A program made the position numbers and the translations under genes. Of a DNA stretch of 64,000 nt, positions 8,654 to 11,449 are shown in pieces. Position 1 is the stretch's first letter. Each line of letters starts with the position of its first letter. The notes under the pieces were generated by a model. It was given only the letters and a program-made list of their open reading frames with translations. It did not search any database and had not been told where the DNA came from. Origin of the DNA: Variovorax soli NBRC 106424. Its GTDB lineage: Bacteria; Pseudomonadota; Gammaproteobacteria; Burkholderiales; Burkholderiaceae_C. The stretch covers positions 1 through 64,000 of the forward strand of contig NZ_BCUU01000011.1 in NCBI RefSeq assembly GCF_001591385.1, in the 5' to 3' direction.

Positions 8654-9772
8654 TCAGCCGCGGCGCTTCTTGACGGCGCGCGCCAGCGTGTCGAGCACGC
8701 CCACCGAGTCGTCCCAGCCGATGCAGGCGTCGGTGATGCTCTTGCCGTATTCCAGGCCGCTCACCTTGTCCTTGCCCGGCGAGAACTTCTGGGCGCCGGG
8801 GTTCAGGTGGCTCTCCACCATCACGCCGAACACGCTCCTGGAGCCGCCCTCGATCTGCCGCGCGATGTCGGCCACCACCTCGATCTGCTTCTGATGCTGC
8901 TTGGAACTGTTGGCATGGCTGCAGTCCACCATCAGCGTGGGCGGCAGCTTGGCCGCGTCCAGGTCGGCGCAGGCCTGCGCCACGCTCGCGGTATCGTAGT
9001 TGGGCGCCTTGCCGCCGCGCAGGATCACGTGGCAGTCGGGGTTGCCCTGGGTCTGCACGATGGCCACCTGGCCGTTCTTGTGCACCGACAGGAAGTGGTG
9101 CCCGCGCGCCGCCGCCTGGATGGCGTCGGTGGCGATGCGGATGTTGCCGTCCGTGCCGTTCTTGAAGCCGATGGGCGCCGACAGGCCCGAGGCGAGTTCG
9201 CGGTGGACCTGGCTCTCGGTGGTGCGTGCGCCGATGGCGCCCCAGGCGATCAGGTCGCCGATGTACTGCGGCGAGATCACGTCCAGGAACTCGCTGCCGG
9301 CCGGCAGGCCCATGCGGTTGATCTCGATCAGCAGCTGGCGCGCGATGCGCAGGCCCTCGTCGATGCGGTAGCTCTCGTCCAGGTAGGGGTCGTTGATCAG
9401 GCCCTTCCAGCCCACCGTGGTGCGCGGCTTCTCGAAGTACACGCGCATCACGATCTCCAGCGTGTCGGCATGCTTCTCGCGCTCGGCCTTCAGGCGCCGC
9501 GCGTAGTCCAGCGCCGCGGCCGGGTCGTGGATGGAGCACGGGCCCATCACCACCAGCAGCCGGTCGTCCTTGCCGGCCATGATCTTGTGGATGCTCTTGC
9601 GGGTGTGGGTGATGAGCGATTCCACCGGGGTCCCGCGAATCGGGAAGAAGCGGATCAGGTGTTCGGGCGGGGGCAGCACGTTGATGTCCTTGATGCGTTC
9701 GTCGTCGGTCTTGCTGGTTTTCTCGACGCGCGCATACCAGCCGTCGGTGGCGGAGTTCGTGCTGCTGCTCAT
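8654..9772 (-). CDS. 3-deoxy-7-phosphoheptulonate (DAHP) synthase, AroG/F/H type
   Basis: A 372-residue class I DAHP synthase that condenses phosphoenolpyruvate with erythrose 4-phosphate, the first step of the shikimate pathway. Recognised by VVMGPCSIHDPAAALDYARR, KPRTTVGWKGLINDP, GFKNGTDG and DCSHANS. The start at 9772 has AAGGAA upstream; longer in-frame starts would run through the leader hairpin. Which isozyme it is (Phe-, Tyr- or Trp-sensitive) cannot be read from sequence by eye. Its 5' leader holds an aromatic-rich leader peptide and an intrinsic terminator, so it is very probably controlled by attenuation. aroE of the same pathway lies at 16336. Confidence 0.93.
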   Translation of the reverse strand: MSSSTNSATDGWYARVEKTSKTDDERIKDINVLPPPEHLIRFFPIRGTPVESLITHTRKSIHKIMAGKDDRLLVVMGPCSIHDPAAALDYARRLKAEREKHADTLEIVMRVYFEKPRTTVGWKGLINDPYLDESYRIDEGLRIARQLLIEINRMGLPAGSEFLDVISPQYIGDLIAWGAIGARTTESQVHRELASGLSAPIGFKNGTDGNIRIATDAIQAAARGHHFLSVHKNGQVAIVQTQGNPDCHVILRGGKAPNYDTASVAQACADLDAAKLPPTLMVDCSHANSSKQHQKQIEVVADIARQIEGGSRSVFGVMVESHLNPGAQKFSPGKDKVSGLEYGKSITDACIGWDDSVGVLDTLARAVKKRRG

Positions 9773-9826: not shown

Positions 9827-9862
9827 AAAAAAAACCGCCGGGCTGTTGGCACCGGCGGTTTT
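9827..9862 (-). terminator. Attenuator terminator in the DAHP synthase leader
   Basis: On the minus strand AAAACCGCCGG (9862-9852), a 10-nt loop and CCGGCGGTTTT (9841-9831) form a perfect 11-bp stem, continuing into a run of eight T (9834-9827). It lies 24 nt after the leader-peptide stop and 54 nt before the DAHP synthase ATG, so it would end transcription before the gene unless an alternative fold forms. Confidence 0.88.
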
Positions 9863-9885
9863 GGGAGGTTCTGCTTGTCTTTGCT

Positions 9886-9960
9886 CTACGCGCGCGCCTC
9901 TCGTCCGCCGGAAACCGGGAACCAAAAGTAGGCAAAAAAGTAAGCGCGGAGGGCGGACAT
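9886..9960 (-). CDS. Aromatic-rich leader peptide of the DAHP synthase attenuator
   Basis: A 24-codon frame, ATG at 9960 to TAG at 9886-9888, whose residues 7-14 are YFFAYFWF: two Tyr, four Phe and one Trp in eight codons. It ends just before an intrinsic terminator in the DAHP synthase leader. In the classical phe/trp attenuation model, ribosome stalling at such codons lets the downstream RNA adopt an antiterminator. Segments that can pair are GTCCGCC (9958-9952) with GGCGGAC (9909-9903), CCGGCGG (9911-9905) with CCGCCGG (9858-9852), and the latter with CCGGCGG (9841-9835). No SD is visible; a -10-like TAGAGT lies 8 nt upstream. The peptide is inferred from sequence only. Confidence 0.8.
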   Translation of the reverse strand: MSALRAYFFAYFWFPVSGGREARA

Positions 9961-9988: not shown

Positions 9989-11449
9989 TCAGGCGGTGCC
10001 GCCGACCGTGAGGCCGTCGATGCGCAGGGTGGGCTGGCCCACGCCTACGGGCACGCTCTGGCCTTCCTTGCCGCAGGTGCCCACGCCGCTGTCCAGCGCC
10101 ATGTCGTTGCCGATCAGGCTCACGCGCTTGAGCGCGTCGGGGCCGTTGCCCACGATGGTGGCGCCCTTCACCGGGTACAGCACCTTGCCGTTTTCCACCC
10201 AGTAGGCCTCGCTTGCCGAGAACACGAACTTGCCGCTGGTGATGTCGACCTGGCCGCCGCCAAAGTTGGTGGCGTACAGGCCCTTCTTGATGCTGGCGAC
10301 GATCTCCTTCGGGTCCTTGTCGCCGCCCAGCATGTAGGTGTTGGTCATGCGCGGCATGGGCACGTGGGCATAGCTCTCGCGCCGGCCGTTGCCGGTGGGC
10401 GCCACGCCCATCAGGCGGGCGTTGAGCGAATCCTGGATGTAGCCCTTGAGGATGCCGTCCTCGATGAGCACGTTGCGCTGGCTGGCGTGGCCTTCGTCGT
10501 CCACGTTGAGCGAGCCGCGGCGGTCGGCGATGGTGCCGTCGTCCAGCACCGTGACGCCCTTGGCCGCCACACGCTGGCCGATGCGGCCGGAGAAGGCGCT
10601 GGAGCCCTTGCGGTTGAAGTCGCCTTCCAGGCCGTGGCCCACCGCCTCGTGCAGCAGGATGCCGGGCCAGCCGGGGCCGAGCACCACAGTCATCTCGCCG
10701 GCCGGTGCCGGGCGCGATTCGAGGTTGACCAGGGCCGCGCCGACCGCCTGGTCGACGTAGCTGGCGATGTGCTCGTCGTCGAAATACGCCAGGCCGAAGC
10801 GGCCGCCGCCGCCGCCGGAGCCCACTTCACGCCGGCCGTTCTGCTCGGCGATCACGGTGACGGACAGGCGCACCAGCGGACGCACGTCGGCCGCCAGCGT
10901 GCCGTCGGCGCGCGCCACCAGCACCACGTCGTATTCGCTGGCCAGGCCCGCCATCACCTGCACGATGCGCGGATCGCGCGAGCGCGCGAGCTTTTCCACC
11001 TTTTCGAGCAGCTGCACCTTGGACGTGCTGTCCAGCGTGGCGATGGGGTCGATGCCGCCATACAGCGCCCGGCTGGCGGCCACCTTGCGCGCGGCCGCCT
11101 TGACCTTGCCAGCCTTGCCGGCGCTGGCAATGGCCCGCACGGTGCGGGCGGCATCCAGCAGCGAGGCCTCGGAAATATCGTCGGAATAGGCAAAGGCCGT
11201 CTTCTCGCCGCTCACGGCCCGCACGCCCACGCCCTGGTCGATGCTGAAGCTGCCGGTCTTCACGATGCCCTCTTCCAGGCTCCAGCCCTCGCTGCGGGTG
11301 TACTGGAAGTACAGGTCGGCGTCGTCGACCCGGTGCGCGCGGATCTCGGCCAGCGCGCGCGACAGGTGCGATTCGTCCAGGCCGAAGGGCGTGAGGAGGA
11401 GTTGCTGCGCCGTGGCCAGGCGCTCGATGGTGGGTTCGCGGGAGATCAT
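9989..11449 (-). CDS. tldD: TldD family metalloprotease
   Basis: A 486-residue protein matching TldD across its length, with the zinc-binding HEAVGHGLEGD (HExxxH), the YAHVPMPRMTNTYM segment and a C-terminal GTCGKEGQSVPVGVGQP. TldD acts with TldE/PmbA as a cytoplasmic heterodimeric peptidase that trims unfolded peptides such as the CcdA antitoxin or microcin precursors. pmbA is not in this window. It follows rodA by 37 nt on the same strand. The ATG has a -10-like CATAAT 6 nt upstream, so a separate leaderless start is possible. Confidence 0.95.
   Translation of the reverse strand: MISREPTIERLATAQQLLLTPFGLDESHLSRALAEIRAHRVDDADLYFQYTRSEGWSLEEGIVKTGSFSIDQGVGVRAVSGEKTAFAYSDDISEASLLDAARTVRAIASAGKAGKVKAAARKVAASRALYGGIDPIATLDSTSKVQLLEKVEKLARSRDPRIVQVMAGLASEYDVVLVARADGTLAADVRPLVRLSVTVIAEQNGRREVGSGGGGGRFGLAYFDDEHIASYVDQAVGAALVNLESRPAPAGEMTVVLGPGWPGILLHEAVGHGLEGDFNRKGSSAFSGRIGQRVAAKGVTVLDDGTIADRRGSLNVDDEGHASQRNVLIEDGILKGYIQDSLNARLMGVAPTGNGRRESYAHVPMPRMTNTYMLGGDKDPKEIVASIKKGLYATNFGGGQVDITSGKFVFSASEAYWVENGKVLYPVKGATIVGNGPDALKRVSLIGNDMALDSGVGTCGKEGQSVPVGVGQPTLRIDGLTVGGTA

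Follow-up and report, generated by a model that had tools for sequence, protein, structure and literature searches.

A putative leader-peptide attenuator, probably leaderless, in front of a DAHP synthase gene in Variovorax soli and its relatives

Introduction

In the present study, a DAHP synthase gene of Variovorax soli NBRC 106424, located on the minus strand of a stretch of DNA of 64,000 nucleotides (hereafter, the window), was found to be preceded by what is very probably a ribosome-mediated transcription attenuator. This reading is based on the sequence anatomy of the region, its conservation and covariation among relatives, and the predicted fold of the RNA as a function of the position of the ribosome, from which we infer where transcription starts, that the leader is translated, that ribosomes stall, and that termination occurs and is relieved. 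An earlier note on this DNA, made from the sequence alone, had proposed a leader-peptide attenuator at this position, and the proposal is now supported by the aromatic leader and terminator of all 30 best family loci found by protein alone, by covariation in the helices, and by a predicted fold that depends on the position of the ribosome.

Attenuators of this kind are known. In trpL and pheL of Escherichia coli, four segments of the leader RNA follow a common logic, in which the control codons lie within segment 1, segments 3 and 4 form the terminator, and segments 2 and 3 form the antiterminator. A precedent in front of a DAHP synthase gene is provided by aroR-aroF of Corynebacterium; what is new is the present element, for which our Rfam searches of the window and of 11 relatives returned no match to a leader family. 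Its probable leaderless start and its wide distribution are the most interesting points.

Materials and Methods

Loci were first found by protein alone, with a DAHP synthase match in 119 of the 120 genomes of the family. Covariance models were built from 29 family loci (R1) and from a wider set of 58 loci (R2), and matches to the terminator alone were not counted as the element. Among 178 loci analyzed, 175 were kept and three that contained the terminator only (L206, L207, and L210) were dropped; a DAHP synthase lies downstream in 174 of the 178, and L083, which stops at the end of its contig, was kept as the 175th. L205, with only three aromatic residues in eight, was retained in the counts, and for L051, L091, and L164 the start codon was reassigned manually. 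Most of this set was retrieved with models trained on the element, including the -10 box, and its uniformity is therefore in part by construction, which does not apply to the two protein-based sets. Regarding records with titles, the best 80 of at least 587 relatives were scored by script for a leader plus a terminator.

Pairing segments were anchored by motif, not by complementarity, in 165 of the 175 loci, and the 10 without the anchor motif were dropped; for the test of the 1:2 stem, the 165 loci were reduced to 146 distinct ones. In fold predictions, the assumed ribosome footprint extended from 15 nt before to 14 nt after the start of the P site, and the RNA ended just before segment 4. 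Mean values for stalls at individual codons were taken over 172 loci, three of the 175 having been dropped.

Results

Leader frame, terminator, and downstream gene

Translation of the minus strand confirmed a frame of 24 codons at 9960-9886, MSALRAYFFAYFWFPVSGGREARA followed by a stop codon, which lacks a Shine-Dalgarno sequence and carries the putative control codons Y7 F8 F9 A10 Y11 F12 W13 F14 (YFFAYFWF, residues 7-14, 9942-9919), seven of these eight residues being aromatic. An intrinsic terminator follows on the same strand at 9862-9827, and comprises an 11-bp stem (AAAACCGCCGG, 9862-9852, and CCGGCGGTTTT, 9841-9831), a 10-nt loop, and eight T (9834-9827). The earlier note had described the stem and the T run, and both are present; however, the distance from the leader stop codon to the stem is 23 nt and not 24, and four of the eight T form the end of the stem. 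The ATG of the regulated gene was confirmed at 9772. This gene (8654-9772, minus strand) encodes a type I DAHP synthase of the AroF/G/H family with 372 aa (TIGR00034, PF00793), the score of which, 541.5 bits, is below the cut-off of 568 bits for the AroG-only model NF006723, and the name aroG is thus shorthand only. A short ORF rich in codons for the end products of the pathway ahead of a biosynthesis gene, and an intrinsic terminator placed between this ORF and the gene, are both present, as in a leader-peptide attenuator.

The same genome contains a second DAHP synthase, which is 57% identical to that of the window, and a script scan of the 420 nt before it detected no aromatic leader. The fold stability of the whole leader stretch in the window is ordinary (z -1.3), and it is conservation, not overall stability, that distinguishes this stretch. 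A consensus scan for promoters and terminators reported neither at the leader; the terminator was missed because the loop limit of the scan was 8, which the loop exceeds.

Pairing segments and their covariation

The earlier note had proposed four segments that pair in mutually exclusive ways, and all of the complementarities that it named exist: 1:2, GTCCGCC (9959-9953) with GGCGGAC (9909-9903); 2:3, CCGGCGG (9911-9905) with CCGCCGG (9858-9852); and 3:4, the latter with CCGGCGG (9841-9835), the 3' arm of the terminator. Pairings 2:3 and 3:4, which have segment 3 in common so that the antiterminator excludes the terminator, are conserved and covary, whereas the proposed pairing 1:2 was not borne out. 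GTCCGCC, which lies over the start codon, was judged not to be the conserved segment 1: as a protector, its predicted probability is 0.003 in the ribosome-free RNA, and a similar pairing is found in 19 of the 165 loci. In the window, it rivals 2:3 mainly with codon 13 or 14 in the A site (0.52 and 0.96, respectively).

Folding of the region around segment 2 yielded a local hairpin that uses the end of the aromatic run as its 5' arm. This corrected segment 1, GTTCCCGG (9922-9915, minus strand), pairs with 9911-9903, and the resulting protector hairpin, GTTCCCGG-TTT-CCGGCGGAC (9922-9903), has a predicted probability of 0.974 in the window without a ribosome. The control codons thus fall within segment 1, as in trpL. 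By eye, the outer stem of 1:2 is UUCUC/GAGAG in most members of the family and UUUCU/AGAAA, UUUCC/GGAAG, or UUCCC/GGGAG in some others. Among the five-pair stems that were tried between the flanks, the 1:2 stem showed the highest excess over shuffles (399 vs. 353 cells, z 5.4, 146 distinct loci).

Across the 165 loci, Watson-Crick pairs occupied 1043 of 1155 cells in 2:3 (shuffled mean 987, maximum 1005, 2000 shuffles) and 1093 cells in 3:4 (shuffled mean 1035, maximum 1052). Segments 2 and 3 read CCGACGG/CCGTCGG in six loci, in which segment 4 remains CCGGCGG by means of G-U pairing, and CCAGCGG/CCGCTGG in one locus (L115), in which CCGGCGG is likewise retained by G-U; CCGGCGG/CCGTCGG, found in two loci, represents G-U intermediates of 2:3. 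The joint change of segments 2 and 3 with segment 4 unchanged speaks for selection on 2:3 itself. All three segments differ in 20 loci, which have CTGGCGG/CCGCCAG/CTGGCGG as segments 2, 3, and 4. Speaking against such selection, 44 and 35 of the 165 loci leave the two outer pairs of 2:3 unpaired, the third pair is an A-C mismatch in six, and CCAGCGG faces CCGCCGG in three.

Covariation scores from a separate tool applied to 58 sequences were 0.115 vs. 0.080 for 2:3, 0.207 vs. 0.131 for 1:2, and 0.103 vs. 0.059 for 3:4, each being above all 500 shuffles, which leave relatedness in, and above all slid versions; some slid versions of 1:2 had a higher paired share, of fewer cells. By a sturdier measure, the number of pairs changed on both sides, the native value was matched by 5 of 500 shuffles for 2:3, by 135 for 1:2 (the protector that, with the corrected segment 1, overlaps the control codons), and by 212 for 3:4. 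When the tree was controlled for, five independent pairs or fewer on supported branches were obtained for any trait among 164 loci, the tree having been built from short DAHP synthase stretches and the pairs being too few for significance; on this tree, the fewest changes were six at position 6 of segment 3, three for CCGTC, and two for CCGCT. RNAalifold with 29 family sequences returned the terminator only and no covariation, which was resolved by wider sampling.

Downstream of the aromatic run, a complement to segment 3 scores 18 or higher in 82% of loci, as compared with 14% when the region is shuffled. Across species, segment 2 is located in three different reading frames of the leader (93, 65, and 7 of the 165 loci), which suggests that the conservation of segment 2 is at the level of RNA and that of the aromatic run at the level of the peptide. 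Compared across the Burkholderiales, the upstream regions agree with the expectation of the earlier note that the aromatic codons are conserved and that the segments covary (2:3 and 3:4, with segment 1 reassigned), and the loss of aromatic codons with the terminator kept, which would have spoken against an attenuator, was not seen among the loci analyzed, most of which had been retrieved with models of the element.

Predicted fold and position of the ribosome

In the window, the predicted probability of 2:3 was 0.009 without a ribosome and 0.97, 0.97, 0.99, 0.97, and 0.88 with Y7, F8, F9, Y11, and F12, respectively, in the A site; it decreased to 0.48 at W13 and 0.03 at F14, was close to 0 at later codons, and amounted to 0.05 at the stop codon. 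With codon 5, 6, or 10, which are non-aromatic, in the A site, 0.98-1.00 was obtained as well, and specificity must therefore come from which codons starve. Since W13, the single Trp codon, is located where a stalled ribosome starts to cover segment 2, Phe and Tyr are the clear signals in the window. The claim that one peptide senses all three aromatic residues holds for Phe and Tyr in these predictions, whereas Trp is marginal here and is absent from 38 of 175 leaders; Phe is present in 175, Tyr in 169, and Trp in 137.

Before segment 4 exists, the median probability of 2:3 over the 175 loci was 0.26 in the ribosome-free state, 0.97 when the A site held the first aromatic codon, and 0.018 at the stop codon, and the means over 172 loci were 0.87 for Phe, 0.88 for Tyr, and 0.93 for Trp codons, with 0.31 at the stop codon. 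Among leaders of relatives with Trp in the run, 129 of 133 would respond to a Trp stall according to the predicted fold. The probability was above 0.5 in 43% of loci in the ribosome-free state, and in 33-34% with the ribosome at the stop codon, and the fold required by the model is thus not adopted by every relative. At equilibrium, 3:4 is on average the favored pairing of the complete RNA at every ribosome position tried (means 0.91-0.95), which implies that the switch works only if 2:3 forms first, namely, as a kinetic decision. In comparisons with shuffled 5' codons, the native RNA hid segment 2 more in 124 of 175 loci (mean 0.43 vs. 0.57, relatedness not being controlled), which gives mild support to a predicted competition by the 5' codons for segment 2.

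TTT accounts for 62% of the Phe codons in the leaders, as compared with 20% of those in the DAHP synthase stretches from these loci. Among the 80 leaders with YFWF, 76 use TTT for the Phe that precedes Trp and 76 use TTC for the Phe that follows it; the latter falls in the 5' arm of the 1:2 stem, and TTT before Trp may make decoding more sensitive.

Promoter and start of the leader

An extended -10 promoter, TGTGCTAGAGT (9979-9969, minus strand, hexamer TAGAGT at 9974-9969), lies 8 nt before the leader ATG, and the spacing from the -10 box predicts a transcription start at approximately 9962-9960, at or adjoining the leader AUG. An extended -10 (TG-N-TANNNT) precedes the leader ATG by 6-10 nt in 119 of 175 loci, and by 6-9 nt in 118 of these, as compared with 5 of 1750 shuffles; TANNNT is absent before the leader ATG in 42 loci, and no conserved -35 stands out before the 175 leaders. 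A Shine-Dalgarno-like motif precedes 2 of 175 leaders vs. 122 of 169 DAHP synthase starts. Since the covariance models contain the -10 box, the protein-based sets carry more weight for the promoter: the extended -10 is present in 29 of 30 loci from the family and in 33 of 57 from titled records, with 0 and 1 Shine-Dalgarno-like motifs, respectively, and in the 30th family locus (L007) it is found ahead of another ATG six nt upstream. An extended -10 just before the ATG together with a near absence of Shine-Dalgarno motifs suggests that the transcript and leader probably start together in the family. Both sequence features of a leaderless mRNA are therefore found, and the leader mRNA in the family is probably leaderless.

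The pattern of a -10 box plus ATG has four matches in the genome of the window, one of which is the DAHP synthase leader element. At another (L291, G000:C1:112973-112994, minus strand), a leucine-rich leader, MQKISLALLLIPFGRSR, is followed by a terminator-like hairpin and an ORF that was recognized by eye as similar to 2-isopropylmalate synthase (leuA), and this locus is a probable second leaderless attenuator, for leucine. At L101 (G028:C24:298555-298705), a weak match to the model, the leader begins with MNFNFSSTLLLLLPANG and has TGTGCTATATT just before its ATG, and a terminator-like hairpin and leuA-like ORF lie downstream.

Distribution among relatives

An aromatic leader and a terminator are present in 30 of the 30 best family loci found by protein alone, those of the window and L023 included. 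R2 matches 117 of the 120 family genomes; among the three missed, G053 has no protein match, while G041 and G072 have weaker ones (1.9e-115 and 6.2e-58), perhaps representing a cut gene or a paralogue. In the order, R1 matches 62 of 250 genomes and R2 matches 73 of 250 at E ≤ 0.001, 60 of these at E ≤ 2e-6; 11 of the other 13 (E > 2e-6) cover the terminator part only. In the class sample, 15 of 275 genomes match, three of which belong to the same family, four are outside the order with the element before DAHP synthase, and the other eight have no DAHP synthase nearby. At L099 (1470-1700), a weak class-level match, a short ORF ending with RIYYFRPAGSVCLLKT is followed by a GC-rich terminator, and the next ORF is transporter-like and does not encode DAHP synthase. 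Matches at E ≤ 1e-5 were obtained in 30 of 249 genomes of the phylum sample, including 14 outside the class. Nine of these 14 were inspected (L296-L304) and, by eye, all nine precede a DAHP synthase-like ORF, most with a promoter-like sequence just before the ATG. The occurrence of the element with type I DAHP synthase outside the class possibly reflects vertical descent or the joint transfer of the gene and switch.

Among the best 80 titled loci of at least 587 relatives, 57 have the leader and terminator, including Variovorax, Acidovorax, Polaromonas, Hydrogenophaga, Comamonas, Burkholderia, Caballeronia, Paraburkholderia, Massilia, Janthinobacterium, Cupriavidus lacunae, a MAG titled Bordetella, and Dyella. 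The 23 that failed include L228, without upstream sequence, L278, the terminator of which lies outside the scanned interval and was present on inspection, and L280, with an aromatic frame, MSRYFSFFSWYGYFAAG, in which a terminator was not found. The contig of L280 is titled an Anaerolineae MAG and carries a proteobacteria-like DAHP synthase, and it is possibly misbinned. The remaining failures include three Polynucleobacter, two Cupriavidus, Thauera, Azoarcus, Rhodocyclus, Citrobacter, and Buttiauxella, some of which may be paralogues. In L235, L237, L240, and L262 (three Polynucleobacter and one beta MAG), the gene is present without a leader detected by the script, possibly due to leader loss.

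A terminator-like hairpin was found in 175 of 175 loci scanned, and the eight leader residues with the highest aromatic density include at least five aromatic ones in 171. The median distances are 9 nt (2-21) from the aromatic run to segment 2, 16 nt (-2 to 29) from segment 2 to the stop codon, and 47 nt (36-59) from segment 2 to segment 3.

Discussion

The following mechanism is proposed. Transcription would start at or within approximately 3 nt of the leader AUG, and, with such a start, we propose that the ribosome loads without a Shine-Dalgarno sequence. When Phe- or Tyr-tRNA, and in most relatives also Trp-tRNA, is scarce, the ribosome would stall in the aromatic run, and cover either segment 1 or the 5' codons supporting the 1:2 fold. 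Segment 2 (CCGGCGG), thereby freed, would pair with segment 3 (CCGCCGG) before segment 4 is made, and this pairing would block the terminator, such that the DAHP synthase gene is transcribed. When amino acids are sufficient, the ribosome would pass over segment 2 to the stop codon, or would depart and 1:2 would close over segment 2; 3:4 would then form and transcription would end near 9827.

The hairpin may alternatively do no more than terminate transcription of the gene upstream (ORF 9989-11449, a tldD-like gene), with the aromatic frame being there by chance. The stem starts approximately 127 nt past the end of this ORF, and the DAHP synthase gene could own a promoter further downstream; nevertheless, the leader, -10 box, and 2:3 partner are retained alongside the terminator in loci found by protein, and the changes in 2:3 are compensated, although a terminator has no need of segment 2, which makes this explanation very improbable. 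A riboswitch, T-box, or protein-bound leader that senses aromatic acids without translation appears to be extremely improbable. Such an RNA would also be conserved, adopt an alternative fold, and lie ahead of a biosynthesis gene, but conservation here resides in the -10 box, the aromatic codons, and short helices, and the sequences of a 29-sequence alignment differ in length by multiples of three as far as the end of the aromatic run (by eye). Moreover, neither the Rfam 15 leader families (Phe_leader, Trp_leader, and others) nor the T-box covariance model matched the window (E up to 10) or 11 relatives (gathering threshold); the window had no meaningful Rfam match, and the 11 loci gave one tRNA only.

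Two further alternatives concern what the attenuator reads and what its products do. It may mainly sense one amino acid, Phe, as reported for aroR of C. glutamicum, with the Tyr and Trp codons being secondary; the decrease from Phe to Tyr and Trp among the leaders (175, 169, and 137 of 175) and the marginal W13 in the window are in line with this, as is the report that Tyr availability had no effect on the C. glutamicum aroF operon (PMC11802643). However, stalls at Tyr and Trp codons predict the same antiterminator over the relatives (means 0.88 and 0.93), and we consider sensing of mainly one amino acid to be unlikely while deserving attention. It is improbable that the terminated leader RNA of approximately 135 nt and its peptide also act in trans, for which rnTrpL/peTrpL of Sinorhizobium meliloti is a precedent (PMC7298713). 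A predicted leaderless small mRNA with a conserved peptide run would suit such a role, but codon control already explains the conservation of the run, and the location of segment 2 in three frames indicates that the C-terminal part of the leader is not one conserved peptide.

In the ilvGMEDA attenuator of E. coli, codons for more than one end product of a common pathway are read in a single leader; the present element resembles it in this respect, while ilvGMEDA differs in serving branched-chain amino acids. Vitreschak et al. 2004 may contain related cases, and the aroR-aroF attenuator of C. glutamicum was reportedly the subject of Neshat et al. 2014. The available descriptions of aroR-aroF place attenuation before the DAHP synthase gene, with Phe-Tyr-Phe in the leader and transcription enhanced under Phe limitation (PMC4046766, PMC11802643). 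Compared by description, it is likewise a leader-peptide attenuator ahead of a DAHP synthase gene, but belongs to an actinobacterium and has three aromatic residues named vs. seven in eight in the window. The trpL and pheL attenuators, which are also covered in PMC11802643, share with the window element the four-segment logic, the control codons in segment 1, and the opposition of 3:4 and 2:3; the window element differs in the gene, in a segment 2 inside the ORF, in the absence of a Shine-Dalgarno sequence, in its mixed Phe/Tyr/Trp codons, and in having no Rfam match. E. coli aroF-tyrA is entered as an "attenuator sensing tyr-tRNA" in the table of a Shewanella survey (PMC2659441), and the likeness, by description only, is that tRNA-linked control was proposed at a DAHP synthase gene. 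S. meliloti trpL (rnTrpL), as described in PMC7298713, has a leaderless leader peptide, the RNA beginning at the AUG, as predicted from sequence here, but with Trp codons and before trpE(G). The uORFC-13-1 motif before aroF in Acholeplasma (PMC8632094) similarly combines an upstream ORF and a terminator ahead of a DAHP synthase gene; in its description, however, the model includes an RBS and the organism is distant. The main text of the attenuator survey by Naville and Gautheret (PMC2965389) does not contain aroG, aroF, or DAHP. The earlier note knew of no such control for this enzyme in Comamonadaceae; titles, abstracts, and passages of the published literature, in which subscription journals are mostly uncovered and an earlier description is possible, contained no apparent description for the Burkholderiales, and the element itself is not confined to Comamonadaceae.

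We tentatively put forward a broader reading, toward which we lean somewhat less than away: that the loci represent a single old phylum-wide element, in which a promoter fused to a leaderless aromatic leader and a conserved four-segment switch would set the flow into the shikimate pathway by reading the charging of Phe, Tyr, and usually Trp tRNAs at once. Such an element would occur in the Burkholderiales, in some other lineages of Gammaproteobacteria in the GTDB sense, and in some genomes from another class; it would have been inherited, or transferred, along with type I DAHP synthase, and leaderless initiation and TTT-rich control codons would be working parts of the sensor.

In enterobacteria, the DAHP synthase step is known for repression by TyrR/TrpR and for feedback inhibition. 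In many Burkholderiales and some other lineages, this step appears to be under the control of an RNA switch that responds to charged aromatic tRNAs. If this is true, the element would be a genetic target for the overproduction of aromatics in Cupriavidus or Variovorax, its covariance model would be usable for genome annotation, and the loci would constitute a natural set of leaderless attenuators for studying translation coupled to the start site.
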